From a virus, in IMG/VR virus record IMGVR_UViG_3300021956_000007, positions 1 to 34,715 of that record: a stretch of DNA of 34,715 nucleotides. One strand, 5' to 3'. Both the position numbers and the translations under genes were made by a program. Below are positions 941 through 33,386 of this stretch, in pieces. The notes beneath the pieces are model-generated. The model did not search any database and had not been told where the DNA came from. It saw only the letters and a list, made by a program, of their open reading frames with translations. Numbering within the stretch: position 1 is the first letter of the stretch; each line of letters begins with the position of its first letter.

Positions 941-1210
941 TCAGAAATCTTCGTTGTAATCGTTGGGAGGAAATCCTCCTTTGGGGTACATATTGCTTTC
1001 TTCCTTGGGGCGGTGGGCAAATGCCTTGAAATAACCTTCCCAATTGGCTGACTGAGGGATGCTGTCAATCTTGATGGTCAGGCTTTTAATGTCCAAAGGC
1101 TGGTCAGATTCAATCCATACCGTCCCATGAGGACTCCAGTACGTCTTTTCCTGCCCATTTTGGGTTGTGTACTTGCGTGCGGCGAATTTAATGTCGAATT
1201 GGTGTTTCAT
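941..1210 (-). CDS. Unknown protein next to phage exonuclease, possible ssDNA-binding role
   Basis: An 89-residue protein beginning MKHQFDIKFAARKY, with alternating hydrophobic strands up to about residue 50 and a flexible tail ending DYNEDF. An acidic tail ending in Phe resembles the partner-binding tip of single-stranded DNA-binding proteins. The gene overlaps the YqaJ exonuclease by 4 bases, in an operon that also has an ERF annealing protein, so an SSB-like job would be fitting. This is inference from tail and context; no OB-fold signature was confirmed. Confidence 0.7.
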   Translation of the reverse strand: MKHQFDIKFAARKYTTQNGQEKTYWSPHGTVWIESDQPLDIKSLTIKIDSIPQSANWEGYFKAFAHRPKEESNMYPKGGFPPNDYNEDF

Positions 1211-1818
1211 GCGATTAGTTTGTTAAGTTGCTCCACCTTGGCTGTGACTTCTGCCAAGAACTTTGTTATTTCCTGTTCCATCTCCTTTATAAAACCATCG
1301 TCCCGTTGCACCCTTTTAACAAAGAGTTGAGCCTTAGTCGGCATCCTGGGATCAAAAGAGACAAAATCACACCACTGACGCCCGGTACACGCCATTTGGA
1401 ATTGCATCTGCGTAATGTATTTCCCAGGCACAGTCTGCGTCAACAAGGTGTCTATATGGGTTGCCGTGTTGGGGCATTTAATCTCCACCAACCCATCTTC
1501 TCCCACCAGCCCATCCGGTGACGCGCCTGCCATCTCAATAGTTGGGTGATCGACTAGGCCGGTTTCGTCTACCAGGACGTTCTGCTGGACTTCGTAAGCT
1601 GCCCTTGCAAACGGTTCCTGATCCGTTCCCCATTGCATGGCAGCGTTGGTAAACGATTCAGCCTGGGTGTTGGTCATGCGCTCCACCACCAACTGAGCCA
1701 TGTAGTTCTCACGGCTGGCGCTGTAACCCGTCTTGGTCTTGGCGATTACGTCAGCAACACGGCTAGCGGTTACCTTGCCAAGACGGGCTTTGAACCATTC
1801 TTCTGATCTTTGATCCAT
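1207..1818 (-). CDS. YqaJ-family viral recombinase (exonuclease)
   Basis: A 203-residue PD-(D/E)XK nuclease of the YqaJ/lambda-exonuclease group, expected to degrade one strand of double-stranded DNA ends and feed an annealing protein. Visible motifs: RSEEWFKARLGKVTASR (4-20), E68 in GTDQEPFARAAYE, SPDG (100-103, catalytic Asp) and EIKCP (112-116, catalytic Glu and Lys), then Gln-rich QMQFQMA near 137-143. The length is typical of the family. It partners with the ERF-type gene a few hundred bases upstream in the same operon, a standard exonuclease-annealase pair for phage recombination and repair. Confidence 0.95.
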   Translation of the reverse strand: MDQRSEEWFKARLGKVTASRVADVIAKTKTGYSASRENYMAQLVVERMTNTQAESFTNAAMQWGTDQEPFARAAYEVQQNVLVDETGLVDHPTIEMAGASPDGLVGEDGLVEIKCPNTATHIDTLLTQTVPGKYITQMQFQMACTGRQWCDFVSFDPRMPTKAQLFVKRVQRDDGFIKEMEQEITKFLAEVTAKVEQLNKLIA

Positions 1819-2315: not shown

Positions 2316-2536
2316 GTGTTTACCCCTAAATGTTTTGCCAGTCTTTCTATGCAGTCTTGAGGGCTTATGCTCAATGCTTTTTTAATCAGTTTTAAAGATT
2401 CATCAATAATTTCATCGTAAGTACCTGGGTCTGCTTTTTTGATTGATTCAAGAGTAATTTGAGCATCTTCCAACGCAGACAAATCAGCACTGTTTAATTC
2501 AAAAAGAAAATCTATGTCTTGTTGAATGTTATTCAT
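2312..2536 (-). CDS. Small acidic helical protein, unknown
   Basis: A 74-residue protein beginning MNNIQQDIDFLFELN, acidic and predicted all-helical. AAGGAG lies 9 bases upstream of the ATG, inside the end of the ERF gene, and the two overlap by 8 bases. No known motif. It could act as a small partner or regulator of the recombination proteins; nothing in the sequence proves this. Confidence 0.75.
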   Translation of the reverse strand: MNNIQQDIDFLFELNSADLSALEDAQITLESIKKADPGTYDEIIDESLKLIKKALSISPQDCIERLAKHLGVNT

Positions 2537-3128
2537 TTGACAACTCCTTTTTGCGCTTGTCTTTTGCTGCCATTACCTTTGCTTGCCATACCGCATCCCC
2601 GTCACATGACGCATAGGCAGCGTTGTAGGTAGTCTTGAGTGTTGCCATATCAATGCAAGCCTCGATTGCCGCTAGGTGATCTGCCATCATGCCCGGGTCA
2701 ACCTTGGTTGTGGGCTTGGGCTCTGGTTTGCCAGATGCCGCATTTCCATCATCATCTTCTGCCGATATGCCGCAAGTTGCCATCAGGCTGTATCTCCGAG
2801 CATAAGTCAGGGCAGAACCATATCCATGCGCGTCATGTTTGGTCGCCGGGACATGAAGCAACCCACCCTCTAATACTTCGCCAGATTCGTGCAAGAACAC
2901 AGTCTCCAACATTACCCCGTCTTTGCATTCGTAGGTGCGTTGCATCAATGCGATTCCGTTGTTGTTCAGCGCGTCCATGACTGCCTCTAGGCAAGAAGTC
3001 AAATCAGCGTATCTGCTGACCCTGCCGTTTTGCTTAAATGCCTGATTGCTTGACAGCTTGAGTGCAGGGCCAAACTCTTTCTGAGCCTTGACAAACGCCG
3101 CCGCTATTTTCATTCCAATTGCTTCCAT
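2529..3128 (-). CDS. erf: ERF-family single-strand annealing protein
   Basis: A 199-residue protein with the ERF core: an N-terminal helix (MKIAAAFVKAQKEF), the Tyr-Ala-Asp-Leu segment around 40-43, and the family hallmark GSALTYARRYSLMATCGI (104-121) followed by an acidic EDDDGN linker. ERF proteins of P22 and related phages anneal complementary single strands during recombination and circularisation. The C-terminal third is a more variable region. GGAG lies upstream of the ATG at 3128; an alternative ATG exists five codons in. It forms a recombination pair with the YqaJ exonuclease. Confidence 0.93.
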   Translation of the reverse strand: MEAIGMKIAAAFVKAQKEFGPALKLSSNQAFKQNGRVSRYADLTSCLEAVMDALNNNGIALMQRTYECKDGVMLETVFLHESGEVLEGGLLHVPATKHDAHGYGSALTYARRYSLMATCGISAEDDDGNAASGKPEPKPTTKVDPGMMADHLAAIEACIDMATLKTTYNAAYASCDGDAVWQAKVMAAKDKRKKELSNE

Positions 3129-4855: not shown

Positions 4856-5134
4856 CCAACACAGAAGCACACCAGATTCTTGACGGAATTAAAAATGGTA
4901 TCCCGACCCCGCAATACAAAGTCACGCTCGCCTTACTCGTCACCGGCGACCTTGGAATTTCTACGCGACACGGAAGCGCGGGAATGGGTCAGGAGATACC
5001 GGGAGAAAGCCAAAGAGGTTGGCCCCAACGAAGCCAGGAGGTGGTGGGACAGAATCATCAGTCACATCACCAGGCTGCGCGGTGAAGATGCAGCTTTTGA
5101 TTTACGCCAACGAATGAACAGGTTTAACAAATGA
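4852..5134 (+). pseudogene. Small replication-region gene with apparent +1 frameshift
   Basis: Two frames together look like one protein. Frame one starts at the ATGA overlap (4852, with GAGGTG upstream) and reads MTNTEAHQILDGIKNG... up to LLVTGD (ending 4950), then becomes nonsense-like. Frame two has no good start (only TTG 4880 or ATG 4895) and becomes protein-like at LEFLRDTEAREWVRRYREK, through ARRWWDRIISHITRLRG to a stop at 5134 that overlaps the RusA start. Skipping C4951 joins them into about 93 residues. It could be a real mutation, an assembly error, programmed frameshifting, or two overlapping genes. Function unknown; similar small proteins often sit beside phage replication genes. 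Confidence 0.6.
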
Positions 5135-5559
5135 CTTTTATGGTTCACTTCCACGTTGAGGGCACACCAGTCCCCAAAAAGCGCCCCAGATTCCGTCAGT
5201 TCAACGGCATTGTCCAGTCCTACACCGACAAAGGAACCCGGACGTATGAGGATCATGTGCGTCTGACCTCCCAAAACGCCATGGGATCAAACGAACCGCT
5301 AGAAACCCCTGTGGGCGTTTATTTGTACATCAGGCTAGGTATCCCTAAGTCGCACTCCAAAAAGCGCACAGAGGACTGTTTAACGGGCTTGGAGAAGCCA
5401 ATTAAGAAGCCTGACATCGACAACCTTGCCAAATCCCTGTTGGATGGCATGAATGGGATTGTTTTTAAGGACGATTCACAGATTGTTTCGTTGCACTGCA
5501 CAAAGGTGTATTCGAGTGAGCCTGGCGTTGACATCATGGTAAAGGAGGAATTGGAATGA
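5131..5559 (+). CDS. rusA: RusA-family Holliday junction resolvase
   Basis: A 142-residue homologue of RusA, a magnesium-dependent dimeric nuclease that cuts Holliday junctions and branched DNA before packaging. Motifs: GTPVPKKRPRFR (11-22), KKPDIDNLAKSLLDGMNG (92-109) with the catalytic Asp95 and Asp97, and FKDDSQI (112-118) with Asp114/115. The full family length is present. It overlaps its neighbours by ATGA on both sides. Together with the ERF and YqaJ genes it completes a phage recombination set. Confidence 0.95.
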   Translation: MTFMVHFHVEGTPVPKKRPRFRQFNGIVQSYTDKGTRTYEDHVRLTSQNAMGSNEPLETPVGVYLYIRLGIPKSHSKKRTEDCLTGLEKPIKKPDIDNLAKSLLDGMNGIVFKDDSQIVSLHCTKVYSSEPGVDIMVKEELE

Positions 5560-5708
5560 GCGAAAAGATTGATCTAAACCCGTATGAGACTGAAGTACGG
5601 AATAGAACCATTGAGGAGATTGCCCGAGCAATTGAGCAATTTAAGGCTTTTGGGCCAAATACATTGGCTAGTTTTGCTGTGTTTATAAGGAGCATGAAAC
5701 GTGAGTGA
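5556..5708 (+). CDS. 50-residue small protein, unknown
   Basis: A short frame starting MSEKIDLNPYETEVRNRTIEE, predicted helical, ending in a basic FIRSMKRE tail. A strong AAAGGAGG lies upstream of the ATG, which overlaps the RusA stop (ATGA). The AAGGAG needed by the next gene is inside its last codons. No family is recognised. Confidence 0.7.
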   Translation: MSEKIDLNPYETEVRNRTIEEIARAIEQFKAFGPNTLASFAVFIRSMKRE

Positions 5709-5796
5709 TTGGCCTTTTCCACCATTTCCCCGACCCGCTGAACCAGCACAAGACATTCCGTTTGGTCTTGATGACTTTGAGGACGCGCCGCTATGA
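5701..5796 (+). CDS. 31-residue GTG-start mini-protein
   Basis: The start is GTG 5701, preceded by AAGGAG at 8 bases. The protein is Pro-rich at the front (WPFPPFPRPAEPA) and acidic at the end (FGLDDFEDAPL). It overlaps the upstream gene by 8 bases and the downstream start by ATGA, so ribosomes would pass straight through. The short Pro-rich plus acidic-hydrophobic design suggests a binding peptide rather than an enzyme. No known family. A non-coding spacer is the alternative, but the perfect start and stop coupling argues for translation. Confidence 0.55.
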   Translation: MSDWPFPPFPRPAEPAQDIPFGLDDFEDAPL

Positions 5797-6185
5797 ACGA
5801 ACAACAATCAGCAATGCTGGACTATCTAGCGCGTGAAGCAATGAAGTCTTTGCTTGCTTCTCCTGTGCCGCTTCCCATTTGGCAAGTTCCAAAAAAATCG
5901 TATGAAATTGCGGCATCCATGTTGGAAGAACGAAAACAAATGCTTGAACATTTTGCTAAAAAAGAAGAATGCAAAACATTGTTGTATGACTGGATGATTA
6001 AAGATGGGTTGCTGACAATTAGATCGTTGAATTGTTTGCGTGCTGAAGGAATTGAATACGCTGAAGAACTTGCAAAATGCACAGAACGACAACTTCTTAA
6101 ATTCCCAAATCTTGGTCGCAAATCAATCAATGAAATTAAAGAAGCCATGCGGGTAAAAGGCTTTAGTCTGAAGGAGCCAACATGA
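5793..6185 (+). CDS. Protein with RNA polymerase alpha-subunit C-terminal-like domain
   Basis: A 130-residue protein. Residues about 73-126 align closely with the bacterial RpoA C-terminal domain: LTIRSLNCLRAEGI (74-87), a helical ELAKCTERQLLKFPNLG stretch, and GRKSINEIKEAM (108-119). The residues that touch DNA in E. coli alpha-CTD are all present: Arg265, Asn268, Cys269, Gly296, Lys298, Ser299 and Glu302 correspond to R77, N80, C81, G108, K110, S111 and E114. The first 70 residues are helical and unlike the alpha N-terminal domain, so it is not a polymerase subunit. It may bind UP-element DNA or contact sigma or activators to redirect host transcription. ATGA overlaps at both ends place it mid-operon. 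Confidence 0.85.
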   Translation: MNEQQSAMLDYLAREAMKSLLASPVPLPIWQVPKKSYEIAASMLEERKQMLEHFAKKEECKTLLYDWMIKDGLLTIRSLNCLRAEGIEYAEELAKCTERQLLKFPNLGRKSINEIKEAMRVKGFSLKEPT

Positions 6186-6319
6186 ATGACGAAATTGAAG
6201 AATTGAAAGCATTGGTTTGGTGGGAAAAGAAACGCCTTTATCGTTTAATTGGTGCTCCTGATTGCCGCGACCCAGACCATCCTGGTTGCGAAAGATGTAA
6301 TGAGGAGGATGACGAATGA
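6182..6319 (+). CDS. 45-residue protein with Cys/His cluster
   Basis: A short frame, MNDEIEELKALVWWEKKRL..., with C28, H33, C36 and C39 in CRDPDHPGCERC, a plausible single zinc-binding knuckle, and an acidic end NEEDDE. It begins at the ATGA overlap with the alpha-CTD-like gene and ends at an ATGA overlap with the next gene. A GAGGAGGA stretch in its tail serves as ribosome site for the downstream gene. Function unknown; being adjacent to the alpha-CTD-like protein could hint at a shared role. Confidence 0.65.
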   Translation: MNDEIEELKALVWWEKKRLYRLIGAPDCRDPDHPGCERCNEEDDE

Positions 6320-9793: not shown

Positions 9794-12205
9794 TTAGTCC
9801 TTGTTAGCCATTCCGCGCAGATCAATTCTCACGGGGTTTGGGGTTGCGTTCAAATCTTTGGTTAGGCCACCATAAGGATTTACGGCTTCCCGAGCAAATC
9901 CTTCTTTGTTCATCTTCTGCATCCACTGTTTTCCAGCAGAAACGGGGATTAAAGATGCGCCACTTGTTGCCGCAGCTAATTTTGCTTCAGCCGCACTCAA
10001 AAGACCTTGTTTAGCCATTTCAGCAAGTTGAGAACTAAAGGTGTTTGAATAGTTAAACGTGCCCGATTTCGGCATTCCAACCTTGCTAGAAAGCGCAGCA
10101 ATCTCCATCAGGTCTTGCATAGCCTGTGGCCCTAACGCCTCCTGCAAGCGCCCCTTGTTGTCAACAATGTAGTTGGCCAGGGTCTTAGGATTGAGGTCTG
10201 GAATGTCCGTAGCAAGGCCAGCCTTACGCATTGCCTGGCGCAATTCACCAGCAATCATTGCTTGCATTGCCACCGGATCATCAGCAATCTCAGCCTTCAT
10301 TCTGCGGATTGCTTCAGGCGTTGCCTTTGTGACAAACTTGTCGTGGAACTTTTCTGCATTCAGGCTTTCACCCTGGGCGGCAACATCATCAAGACTTCCC
10401 GCCTCTTTGACAGCCGCGCGGTATGCAGGGTTAGCCTTTAATATTTCTTGGCGCTCACGGTTCAATGCCCTAGCGTTGTCAGCCAATGCCTTGAGTTGCA
10501 TAGCCTGGGGACTACCACCTTGTTCGCCAAAGATGGGGAGTTTTTCTAACTGGTCACGCACAATGTAAGCAGCCGCCCGAGCGTTGCCGTTTGCACTAGA
10601 CCGCATCTCATTGGCTAGGTTGGTACGCAGTGCCTCATACGCCTCAAACGTGGGATTAGCGTAAAAGTCTTTTAGGTCGCCAGCAATAGATGCAGACAGG
10701 TGATTGGTCTTGAGATTCTTAGTCAACTCTGATTTGATGCTGGAATCTAGCGTTTGCACATCAATCGGGAACTGACCGCCATTGGCATCTTGTAATGCTT
10801 TATAGGCATTAGAGATTGCGTCTGTGCGAACTTTATCTTTAGCTGCCAAAGCGTTGATCTGAGCCTGTCCGATTGCGCTTGGATCAGTCTCAAAAATCTC
10901 AGGAGCATTCTTGCGGATCGTGTTCTCAAATGCCGCTTTGAATTGTTTGGGTTGCTCGTTAAAGTGTTCGCCAAGCGTAGACGTTTCTCCACGCTTGTTC
11001 CACTCTTGAGAGTACAGGCTTGTGTCGCCAGTACGCTGACCACGCGACAAATTGATGCCGTGTTTTTCTTCAAGTGATCGAGTCTCAAGCGCAGGAAGAT
11101 CAACGGCTCTTGGATTGAGCGTTTTGACATGGGCTTGCAACTCGGGAGAAGCCTGAGAAACAGCGGCCTCTATGTTGCCTCTAAGCACGTTTTCAGGCAT
11201 AGCAGCAGCAGAACCCATGCTAGTCATGCCTGGGGCAGCACCGGGTTGCGCTCCCGCTTGTGCTTGACGTTGTGCAAATTGATTTTCTAATTGAGAGCGA
11301 ACATTTCGCATCTCTTTAATTTGACCTGGAATTTTTGCAAGAGTAGGACTGGCGGCAACCAATGCCGTACCCATCATGTTCTCAACGTCAGAAACAGGAA
11401 TGCCAAGTTTTTCAGAAATCCATGCCGCACCTTTACTAGCATTCTGCCCAACAAATTCCATAATTTGTCGTGATGCTTCTCCTTTGTAAGCAGGGCTTTC
11501 AGTAATGCCCAAAGCCTTACCAAACGGGCTTTCAGTTGCGCTGACAACCTTTTGTTGCAATGCAGCAGCTTCCTCTGGGCTTTTCTGCATAGCCCGAGCG
11601 CCAGCATAAGTTAGAGGGCCAGCAACGCCGGGGATGATTCCCCCAATCGTTACGTCTGCCAAACTAGCCAACCCTTGACCAAGTTGACCAAGCGTAGAAG
11701 GCTGTTCAGGTGCGCGTTGAATGGTTGGTTTCTTAGCAGACGGAAAGCCCACGAAAGGCTTGCTTAAATCTTCTGCCTTAACACCTTGCTGTTCTTCTGT
11801 TGGAGGTGCGCCAGAAAAGAAAGAGGACAAACTTCCACTCGTTTGCTCACCAGGCATGGCCACCGCATGAACTGGATCACGTTTGCCCAACGGACGATGG
11901 ATGCCAAACTGATTCAGGAATGATTCAGGAACAGATGCCGGTATGTCTGCCGCAGATTCATGAAACGTCTGTTTGCCAGGAAAGTCAGCAGGGTTAAGGG
12001 GCATATAAACACCCGGTTTGCCTTGCTTAAAAGCGTCATACAGGCGCTGTTGCTCATCTCGGGTGCGAGCCTGACTTGTGATGGGCAAATCCTTGCCAAA
12101 CTGTTCTTTGTAAGCAGTTTTAGCCTTTTCAAGTCGAGAACCAAAGTCGCTGGTCGGTTCTTTCTCTGTAGATGCGCCAACAAAGAAGTCAGAAAGAGCG
12201 CCCAT
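9794..12205 (-). CDS. Large internal/ejection protein with N-terminal M15-like peptidase domain
   Basis: An 803-residue protein. Residues about 24-116 resemble an M15 (VanY-type) peptidase: ITSQARTRDEQQRLYDAF (42-59), FHESAADI (81-88) and DPVHAVAM (110-117), offering His82, Asp87 and His113 as metal ligands. The rest is helical and Ala-rich with a Gln/Ala/Gly linker near 312-330, typical of virion proteins ejected with DNA. It may open the cell wall during genome entry. The usual HxxGxAxD spacing is shortened, so activity is uncertain. TAATG overlap with the upstream gene. Confidence 0.75.
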   Translation of the reverse strand: MGALSDFFVGASTEKEPTSDFGSRLEKAKTAYKEQFGKDLPITSQARTRDEQQRLYDAFKQGKPGVYMPLNPADFPGKQTFHESAADIPASVPESFLNQFGIHRPLGKRDPVHAVAMPGEQTSGSLSSFFSGAPPTEEQQGVKAEDLSKPFVGFPSAKKPTIQRAPEQPSTLGQLGQGLASLADVTIGGIIPGVAGPLTYAGARAMQKSPEEAAALQQKVVSATESPFGKALGITESPAYKGEASRQIMEFVGQNASKGAAWISEKLGIPVSDVENMMGTALVAASPTLAKIPGQIKEMRNVRSQLENQFAQRQAQAGAQPGAAPGMTSMGSAAAMPENVLRGNIEAAVSQASPELQAHVKTLNPRAVDLPALETRSLEEKHGINLSRGQRTGDTSLYSQEWNKRGETSTLGEHFNEQPKQFKAAFENTIRKNAPEIFETDPSAIGQAQINALAAKDKVRTDAISNAYKALQDANGGQFPIDVQTLDSSIKSELTKNLKTNHLSASIAGDLKDFYANPTFEAYEALRTNLANEMRSSANGNARAAAYIVRDQLEKLPIFGEQGGSPQAMQLKALADNARALNRERQEILKANPAYRAAVKEAGSLDDVAAQGESLNAEKFHDKFVTKATPEAIRRMKAEIADDPVAMQAMIAGELRQAMRKAGLATDIPDLNPKTLANYIVDNKGRLQEALGPQAMQDLMEIAALSSKVGMPKSGTFNYSNTFSSQLAEMAKQGLLSAAEAKLAAATSGASLIPVSAGKQWMQKMNKEGFAREAVNPYGGLTKDLNATPNPVRIDLRGMANKD

Positions 12206-13611
12206 TATTTGATCCCGCCTTTCATTAGATTTTCAATGTTGCTGGCTTTTTCCTGCAACTCTTTCATCTCTTTTTGGCTCATACCAGACAACAACTGAAT
12301 CCGAGCCCTTTTTTTCTCATCTTCGCTCATGTTGGAGTCTTGGATGTTCTTCGCCAAGAAGATACGAACATCGTAGTTATCAGCCCATGCCTGTTGGAAC
12401 TTGTTGGCGTGAATTGTGCCGTTTAAAGGGCCGCGATTGTCAACGTATTTCTTAAGTCCTGACCGGAACTCATCCACCGCCGTGTTCATGGCATCAGAAC
12501 GATCAATCACAGACTTCAACGCTTTGGGCGTAATGTCGGCAGAACCAGACGCTAAATCGCTAGTCTCACGCGCCATGTTGGTTGGCACACCCATCGCATT
12601 AGCCATGCGGAGTTGCTGATCTGCCAAGTTCTTCATCAGCATTTCAGTCTCAGAATCACCAAACAGCCACTTGCCAGCCTTACGCAATGCCTGACCAGGC
12701 GCAGAGCCAGCAGCCTTGTTGATGTACTCGTTGATCTTACGGATGGACTGTTTGCTCTCTTGTGCGTTTTGACCCGCCTGAACGCTTTGGTCAATCAGCT
12801 TCACACCTGAGTTATAACGGTCAGTCTGTTGAGCAGTCAACTGGGCAATGTTCCCTGCGGTGACAGGCATATCTTCCATCACCAATGACTTTCCAGGACT
12901 ACGCGCATCCTGCGTCAATGCAGGAGTTTGACCGGCTTGGCCTCCAGGAGCACCAGCGTCACCCAATCTCTCAAGCTGTCGAGTAGACGGATTGATGTGA
13001 TATTTGACGCCGTTAAGTTCAATCGTGCCGCCAGTTTGCAAGGTTTGCTGACCAGCAGGGCCAATACCAAACTGAATGGCGTTCTTGAACGCTTGCGGGA
13101 TGCCTTGCGGGTCTTTAATGCTTTTCTGAATCAGACGTTCAAAAACATTACTAACCTTTCTTTCGGCTTGGGGAACATCAGCAAATAGTCCAGCCGCCTC
13201 ATTCTTCATCTCAAGCAACTTTGCGCTAACCTTTTTGCTGTCACCGCTGTTGATTGCCGGGTCGTTTGCATATCCGCCAATCAAGTCATATAGCTTGGCA
13301 TTTTGAGCCATGTCCAAACTAAATCTGGCTTGCTCTGCTTCCGTTGTGGCTTTTTGCACAGCCAGCGGATTCATTGCGGCGGCTTGAGCAAGTTCTTGTT
13401 GCTTTTGTTGCAACAACAATGGATTCATTGCTTCGGCTTGTTGAACAGATAGTTTAGCTTGCTGAATCTGCAAAGGGTTGTACTCTGCCGCTTGCTGGTA
13501 AGACTGCATACCGCGAGCAAGGTTAAGCATATCCGAAAGTCCCGTCATGGGACTTTGGGTCTGCATGGGCTGAACCGTTAGGTTTGTATTAAAGGGAGCA
13601 GTTGCCATCAT
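12205..13611 (-). CDS. Internal virion (ejection) protein with 18-residue repeats
   Basis: A 468-residue, Gln/Ala-rich, mostly helical protein. Three tandem 18-residue units begin with NPL at residues 45, 63 and 81, each followed by a Gln-rich amphipathic run. It is flanked by the p32-like DNA transfer protein and the peptidase-like protein with start-stop overlaps on both sides; three consecutive large genes of this kind match the ejection-protein set of P22-like phages (gp7, gp20, gp16 position). No catalytic motif. Confidence 0.75.
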   Translation of the reverse strand: MMATAPFNTNLTVQPMQTQSPMTGLSDMLNLARGMQSYQQAAEYNPLQIQQAKLSVQQAEAMNPLLLQQKQQELAQAAAMNPLAVQKATTEAEQARFSLDMAQNAKLYDLIGGYANDPAINSGDSKKVSAKLLEMKNEAAGLFADVPQAERKVSNVFERLIQKSIKDPQGIPQAFKNAIQFGIGPAGQQTLQTGGTIELNGVKYHINPSTRQLERLGDAGAPGGQAGQTPALTQDARSPGKSLVMEDMPVTAGNIAQLTAQQTDRYNSGVKLIDQSVQAGQNAQESKQSIRKINEYINKAAGSAPGQALRKAGKWLFGDSETEMLMKNLADQQLRMANAMGVPTNMARETSDLASGSADITPKALKSVIDRSDAMNTAVDEFRSGLKKYVDNRGPLNGTIHANKFQQAWADNYDVRIFLAKNIQDSNMSEDEKKRARIQLLSGMSQKEMKELQEKASNIENLMKGGIK

Positions 13612-32192: not shown

Positions 32193-33386
32193 TTAAGCAG
32201 TTTCGGTTAATTCCGTCAACAAAACAGCCTTTTTGCCGGTGAAGTCTTCCCACCGTTTTACGATTACATCGCAATACTTTGGGTCTAGTTCCATCAGCCG
32301 AGCAACACGCCCATTTTTTTCCGCGGCAATTAGCGTAGTTCCGCTTCCACCAAAACTATCCAGCACAATGTCGCCGCCTTTAGTGTTATTAAGCATTTGG
32401 TATTCAAATAGCGCAACAGGCTTCATTGTGGGGTGTTCGCCATTCCTAGACGGTTTGTCGAATTCCAGGATGGTTGTTTGCTTGCGGTCTGTGGCCCATA
32501 AATGCCCCGCACCTTCCTTCCATCCATACAAGCAGGGCTCGTGCTTCCAATGGTAATCTTGCCGCCCCATAACAAGGCTAGATTTTTTCCAAATTAAACA
32601 CTGCCTTACCGTCCAGTTTGCATCTCGCGCCGCCCCTCGGAAGTTATACCCTTCAGAATCAGCGTGCCAAATGTAAAAGACCGCCCCGGGTTTCATTACT
32701 AGGTCGGCAGTAACGTAAGCATCCCGCAAAAATTGACGGAATTGGTCGTCGCCCATATTGTCATTTTTAATTGTGAGCCCCGTTCCACCTTCGTAAGCAA
32801 CGTTATAAGGCGGGTCTGTCAGCCACATATCCACAAGTTGACCATCGCATAGCTTTTCCATGTCGTTAGTGCTACACGAATCACCGCACATCAGCCGGTG
32901 CTTGCCCAATTGGTATATATCGCCAGGCTTTGTCTTAGCCTCCGCGGGAACATCTGGGGCGGCGTCTTCGTCCGTTAGCCCTTCGGTCAGTTCTACGGGC
33001 TTCAGCGCATCTATTTCCTCAAGGCTAAAGCCGGTCAGTTCTAGATCAAAGCCTAATTGCTCGAGTTCCTGGAATTCTATGTTTAGCAGTTCATTGTCCC
33101 ACCCGGCATTCAGCGCCAGCTTGTTGTCGGCAATGATGTATGCCTTTACCTGGGCGGGGGTAAGATTTTTTACCTCAATGCAAGGAACTTTACTCATCCC
33201 AAGTTTTCGAGCAGCCATTAGCCGCCCGTGACCTGCAATGATGCTGTTGTCAGTTATCAGGATCGGGTTTGTCCAGCCAAATTCCTTGATGCTTGCCGCA
33301 ATCTGTGCCACTTGCTCATCGCTGTGGGTGCGGCTGTTGTTAGCATAAGGTATTAGTTCTGCGACATTCTTTTCCGTGATATTCAT
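32193..33386 (-). CDS. ParB-domain fused to beta-class DNA methyltransferase
   Basis: A 397-residue two-domain protein. Residues 1-90: ParB/sulfiredoxin-like domain with NSRTHSDEQVAQIAASIKEF and IIAGHGRLMAARKLG (GHGR at 52-55). Residues about 155-390: N4/N6 amino methyltransferase with DPPY (191-194) ahead of the AdoMet-binding DSFGGSGTT (343-351), the beta-class order, and HPTMKP (318-323). It probably modifies phage DNA against restriction. It begins in an ATGA overlap with a small upstream gene. Confidence 0.94.
   Translation of the reverse strand: MNITEKNVAELIPYANNSRTHSDEQVAQIAASIKEFGWTNPILITDNSIIAGHGRLMAARKLGMSKVPCIEVKNLTPAQVKAYIIADNKLALNAGWDNELLNIEFQELEQLGFDLELTGFSLEEIDALKPVELTEGLTDEDAAPDVPAEAKTKPGDIYQLGKHRLMCGDSCSTNDMEKLCDGQLVDMWLTDPPYNVAYEGGTGLTIKNDNMGDDQFRQFLRDAYVTADLVMKPGAVFYIWHADSEGYNFRGAARDANWTVRQCLIWKKSSLVMGRQDYHWKHEPCLYGWKEGAGHLWATDRKQTTILEFDKPSRNGEHPTMKPVALFEYQMLNNTKGGDIVLDSFGGSGTTLIAAEKNGRVARLMELDPKYCDVIVKRWEDFTGKKAVLLTELTETA

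Follow-up and report, generated by a model that had tools for sequence, protein, structure and literature searches.

The C-terminal domain of the RNA polymerase alpha subunit (alpha-CTD) is the main docking point of strong promoters and of activators, many of which bind it. Bacteriophages are known to act on this host subunit: through its Rac protein, LUZ19 causes the alpha linker to be cut, which releases the CTD, and alpha is ADP-ribosylated by enzymes of T4 (PMC7552054). Phage proteins containing an alpha-CTD are already present in sequence records, annotated but unstudied, in Bacillus phage vB_BmeM-Goe8 ("RNA polymerase subunit alpha", QDP42789), Ruegeria phage vB_RpoS-V16 (gp23, AWY09459) and Microbacterium phage Morrill. 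In a literature search that covered openly accessible journal papers, neither alpha-CTD modules encoded by phages nor the DYFA motif described below turned up as the subject of a paper. The protein analysed here is, as far as its sequence allows us to judge, a known domain placed in an undescribed and repeatedly formed phage architecture. Like the Goe8 and V16 proteins, it has an alpha-CTD without the alpha N-terminal domain (alpha-NTD), but those two have other partners and CTDs of other lineages, with an unassigned N-terminal part and, in one of them, a C-terminal pyrophosphatase annotation. With Rac and with Alt, ModA and ModB of T4 it would have in common the host alpha subunit as a target, and Rac also yields a free CTD; however, these proteins modify the host's own alpha, while the present protein supplies a CTD.

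The gene lies in a 34.7-kb virus record of podovirus type, which codes for portal, major head, terminase and DNA-ejection proteins; the whole stretch of 34,715 nucleotides is called the window. Its open reading frame (5793..6185, +) gives a 130-aa product, designated P0001, for which a preliminary description had claimed a near-complete alpha-CTD with all seven residues contacting UP-element DNA in the correct spacing. Profile search and alignment bear this out. Pfam RNA_pol_A_CTD (PF03118) matches residues 74-119 with E 1.5e-17 (63.5 bits, cut-off 23.8), and residues 257-314 of E. coli alpha align without gaps to residues 69-126 of P0001 (5997..6170, +). In this alignment all seven UP-contact positions (265, 268, 269, 296, 298, 299 and 302) are in register: R77, N80 and C81 correspond to the DNA-contact residues R265, N268 and C269 of alpha (codons in 6021..6035, +), and G108, K110, S111 and E114 to G296, K298, S299 and E302 (6114..6134, +). 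The general HhH profile HHH_5 (PF14520) stays below its cut-off (14.3 bits against 27, E 0.059), and no unrelated HhH family was returned. A sequence search of the PDB gave 51 alpha-subunit chains (best E 3.9e-13), and the sole non-alpha match is a chance one (E 0.88).

The fold predicted by AlphaFold2 from an alignment with 23 relatives (mean pLDDT 87, about 90 within the alpha-CTD) consists of two N-terminal helices, at residues 3-21 and 29-59, followed by an alpha-CTD-like bundle. Foldseek comparison of this model with the PDB returned alpha-CTD chains, among them 3gfk_B (rmsd 0.6 over 54 columns) and 1z3e_B (TM 0.84 by target), and the helix arrangement expected of an alpha-CTD is thus predicted. 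By sequence the domain is closest to betaproteobacterial RpoA (55-59% over 53-58 aa). Judged by these matches and by the model, P0001 carries a genuine alpha-CTD outside RpoA. The CTD of RpoA and that of P0001 share sequence, predicted fold and the seven UP-contact residues, but the whole protein does not belong to RpoA: NCBIfam rpoA profiles score 57-60 bits against cut-offs of at least 228, and a search for an alpha-NTD match in the N-terminal part of this 130-aa protein found none. P0001 would hence have no role in RNA polymerase assembly, and bears a helical hairpin at the N-terminus instead.

This N-terminal part had been described as bearing no likeness to alpha-NTD, which stands, but it is a recognisable phage domain. 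We named it DYFA after the motif RDYFAAKAMQ...AYxxADAMLxAR, common in small phage proteins. The hairpin occupies approximately residues 8-50 of P0001 (5814..5942, +), within the two predicted helices, and relatives of P0001 in viral contigs share EELLDxFAxEAMK...AYxIAExMLERR, a divergent form of the motif. Stand-alone DYFA copies match PHROGs 2201, 37111, 30599 and 20565, the last of which is also matched by 10 of the 23 relatives of P0001. The assignment of P0001 itself rests on profiles, since P0001 alone gave no direct PHROG match at E<=1: hhalign of the P0001-type N-terminus with stand-alone phage DYFA proteins gave E 9.2e-8 (probability 94), and an HMM built from 80 stand-alone copies matched a P0001-type protein at E 1.7e-7, whereas with alpha-CTD proteins having other N-termini it gave E>2. 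On these profile comparisons, P0001 begins with a diverged version of a small domain that is very common in phages. The stand-alone proteins of PHROGs 2201, 37111, 20565 and 30599 resemble P0001 in the helix-loop-helix motif (FAxxAM...AYxxADAML) and in their location in early phage operons; they differ in being about 60-90 aa long and in lacking an alpha-CTD (0 of 80 examined). One DYFA PHROG cluster is labelled "transcriptional regulator".

The alpha-CTD of P0001 is one of many in viral contigs. A single motif scan gave 215 relatives, and none of the 80 that were read contains alpha-NTD or is RpoA. The partners of the CTD among them are many and unrelated, and range from the DYFA hairpin and coiled coils to a sigma-70 region-4-like domain and a Mor-like HTH; the latter two point to promoters. 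Comparison with RpoA lineages placed individual phage CTDs with alphaproteobacteria (L083, L086 and L074, 77-81%), gammaproteobacteria (L042, 78%), a beta-type RpoA (L040, 76%) and Firmicutes (Goe8, 56%). A single phage origin was rejected (p-AU 0.010) in a tree of 72 CTDs, which has few columns and is poorly resolved. Taken at the level of sequence, the alpha-CTD is a mobile module that phages have taken up many times.

At least two modes of joining DYFA to alpha-CTD can be read from the order of their segments. In P0001-type proteins and in L234-L237 the CTD forms the C-terminal tail of DYFA, and in L040 and L043 it lies between the two DYFA helices as a loop insertion. Nearly "empty" forms exist for both: over 53 aa, L265 shares 79% identity with the DYFA part of L234, and a 40-aa stretch of L287 matches the first part of L040 with 70% identity. 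The independence of the L040 join is drawn from topology and from these near-empty forms, because rejection of one origin for the P0001-type CTDs and L040 did not reach significance in the AU test (p-AU 0.10). The AlphaFold2 model of L040 is of low confidence outside the CTD, with flanking helices at pLDDT of about 50-60, and does not confirm the loop insertion.

In order to compare the faces of the domain, retention of the bacterial consensus was calculated over a set of 63 distinct phage CTDs with similarity weighting, taking positions that the search pattern did not cover. The DNA contacts 265, 268 and 269 are retained at 85%, with R265 at 100%; the buried core is retained at 78% and other positions at 35%, while the sigma-contact (261) determinant falls to approximately 30% and the activator-contact (287) determinant to approximately 41%. 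Residues 293-302 lay inside the first search pattern, which biases retention there, and a second, independent scan was carried out with a pattern around R265: G296, K298, S299 and E302 were all kept in 29 of 39 loci and not in the other ten. K298, S299 or E302 is lost in L208, L225, L232 and L234-L237, so that DNA binding among the relatives may not be universal; N268 is replaced by H or R in many P0001-type relatives. Close pairs of relatives give dN/dS values of approximately 0.05-0.23 for the CTD, and the L061/L071 pair differs by 10 synonymous and no replacement changes, by which measure the CTD is under purifying selection in the relatives. As the DNA face is kept and the protein-contact faces have drifted, selection appears to keep a DNA-gripping domain with its protein-contact faces released.

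The explanation we prefer, to which we assign a probability of about 0.48, is that P0001 is an early two-domain protein whose alpha-CTD would dock the DYFA hairpin at UP-like A/T-rich DNA and there compete with, or replace, the host alpha-CTD. The CTD would grip the A/T-rich minor groove upstream of promoters, as at an UP element, and so bring the hairpin to these sites, where P0001 would displace or stand in for the tethered host alpha-CTD; early in infection this would alter the choice of host or phage promoters. In favour of this reading are the identity and predicted fold of the CTD, its retained DNA face and purifying selection, the likeness of phage CTDs to several RpoA lineages, the promoter-type fusions, the two DYFA joins with their near-empty forms, and the known phage attacks on alpha. 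Competition for UP elements, one of three actions suggested in the preliminary description, comes close to this reading and may hold. The second, bringing polymerase to phage promoters, finds no support in the sequence because P0001 has neither alpha-NTD nor any other polymerase-binding part.

Against a promoter role speaks the gene neighbourhood, in which the genes are those of recombination and replication and not regulatory ones. The placement of the gene in an early operon, as stated beforehand, was confirmed: the rightward operon contains a P22-Cro-like regulator, a replication-initiator-like protein, a RusA-type Holliday junction resolvase (5131..5559, +; Pfam RusA E 2.6e-35), the P0001 gene two frames after RusA, and an HNH protein. 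Start/stop overlaps of 4 bases (ATGA) tie the P0001 gene to the frames on either side. Upstream, the stop of a putative 31-aa gene (5701..5796, +) overlaps the P0001 ATG; this frame is a candidate gene, likely translationally coupled to P0001. Downstream, the start of a 45-aa frame (6182..6319, +) overlaps the P0001 stop. A leftward early operon carries the ERF single-strand annealing protein (2529..3128, -) and the YqaJ exonuclease (1207..1818, -). A scan for promoters and terminators revealed no excess of them.

From this context comes the main rival explanation, in which P0001 is an accessory of recombination or replication with a general HhH DNA-binding domain: the hairpin would bind ERF/YqaJ or RusA and the CTD would hold DNA, with no role at promoters. 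Its rank comes from the position of the gene in some relatives. The alpha-CTD gene is located directly between ERF and YqaJ in L022, L030-L032, L040 and L043 and directly before YqaJ in L015, L016 and L018, with frequent start/stop overlaps at such junctions; several phages have stand-alone DYFA genes in the vicinity of genes for exonuclease, RecT/Gam or SSB; and the HhH motif is common to alpha-CTD and repair proteins, as the weak HHH_5 score recalls. However, many other relatives have the gene beside neither ERF nor YqaJ, conservation singles out R265, a residue of the UP minor-groove contact that a general HhH domain does not need, and the sigma region-4-like and Mor-like fusions elsewhere point to transcription. 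We regard the accessory role as less likely than the preferred reading.

Considerably less probable is a decoy function, in which the contact surfaces of the alpha-CTD would bind and sequester activators of host or phage, or sigma region 4; activator capture was the third action suggested earlier. That alpha-CTD is bound by many activators and that T285, E286, L289 and L290 are retained in P0001 speak for it. P0001 nevertheless departs from RpoA at both determinants, with V287R, E288Q, G315K and R317P at the 287 one and D258K and E261L at the 261 one, so that its sigma and activator faces are altered, and the phage copies in general have let these surfaces drift; activator capture is disfavoured because the determinants were lost while the DNA face was kept. 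Very improbable is a decoy for enzymes modifying or cutting the alpha-CTD, for instance ADP-ribosyltransferases directed at R265 or Rac-like systems of competing phages, which would fit the invariance of R265 and the known phage attacks on alpha (PMC7552054), but we identified none in these phages, and the recurrent DYFA fusion would be left unexplained.

The segment itself moves easily. A 639-bp block including the P0001 gene (5598-6236) is identical in the viral contig IMGVR_UViG_3300002843_000008 (L002), and the flanking genes differ by approximately 10-25%, the upstream RusA gene at 60 of 429 bases; since the block is identical and its flanks are not, the segment must have been exchanged recently. 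That P0001 is a mere passenger, captured not long ago and without enduring function, would agree with such mobility but is hardly credible in view of the dN/dS values of its relatives and the large, old subfamily to which it belongs.

Docking of the DYFA hairpin at UP-like DNA by the alpha-CTD, our preferred reading, could be extended to the stand-alone DYFA proteins. As the two domains were joined more than once in phages, DYFA proteins might work at polymerase docking sites, and those without a CTD would then act at the same sites with the host alpha-CTD supplied in trans. That the DYFA family as a whole consists of phage factors at alpha-CTD/UP-element sites, using the host CTD in trans or a captured copy in cis, is a speculative generalisation which we rate as rather doubtful; on it, repeated gene fusion would have allowed a whole family of host-transcription modulators to be assigned. 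If the preferred reading is true, it would represent an undescribed route of host takeover, in which a large and varied set of phages took up the domain, kept the DNA grip, shed the sigma and activator contacts and attached other modules; it would also offer an entry point to the widespread DYFA family.

Several candidates were rejected in the course of the searches. The match named "Acinetobacter phage MD-2021a" sits in a ribosomal-protein operon and was discarded as bacterial DNA, as were MT835508, MT836419 and MT837142, which encode full RpoA. INPHARED records CAKLQH020000003.1, MT835508.1, MT836419.1 and MT837142.1 contain a full bacterial rpoA with ribosomal-protein genes and are likely bacterial DNA filed under phage. 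In a scan of bacterial genome contigs the matches listed were mostly the CTD of RpoA from beta- and gammaproteobacteria. Among 399 genomes from the order to which an Undibacterium isolate belongs, each of those matched at E<=1e-12 has exactly one match, and the listed matches lie in frames that are roughly as long as RpoA or exceed it; the P0001-type fusion is for these reasons not a common lysogenic gene in that order, with the reservation that divergent copies may escape such a search.

A few further observations concern the relatives and the window. L234-L237 combine a canonical DYFA with a diverged alpha-CTD in which K298, S299 and E302 are replaced by V, C and N and R265 is kept; their DNA binding may be lost or altered. 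In L042 (3497-4189) and L025 (3485-4192) a sigma-70 region-4-like or similar HTH is joined to an alpha-CTD closely resembling that of gammaproteobacterial RpoA (78% in L042). An HTH followed by alpha-CTD, a second activator-type fusion, is found in L076 (20-637) and L078 (3809-4426), and this HTH is probably the source of two matches to Mor transcription activator (E about 0.001). In the V16 protein (L003, 3989-4855), which is 288 aa long and named pyrophosphatase in RefSeq, the alpha-CTD is N-terminal. In the window, a ParB-like nuclease domain is joined to a DNA methyltransferase at 32193-33386 (-; phrog_498, E 1e-177), and two large frames of 803 and 468 aa at 9794-13611 (-), with no PHROG match, stand beside a DNA-ejection-like protein and are probably ejection proteins themselves.
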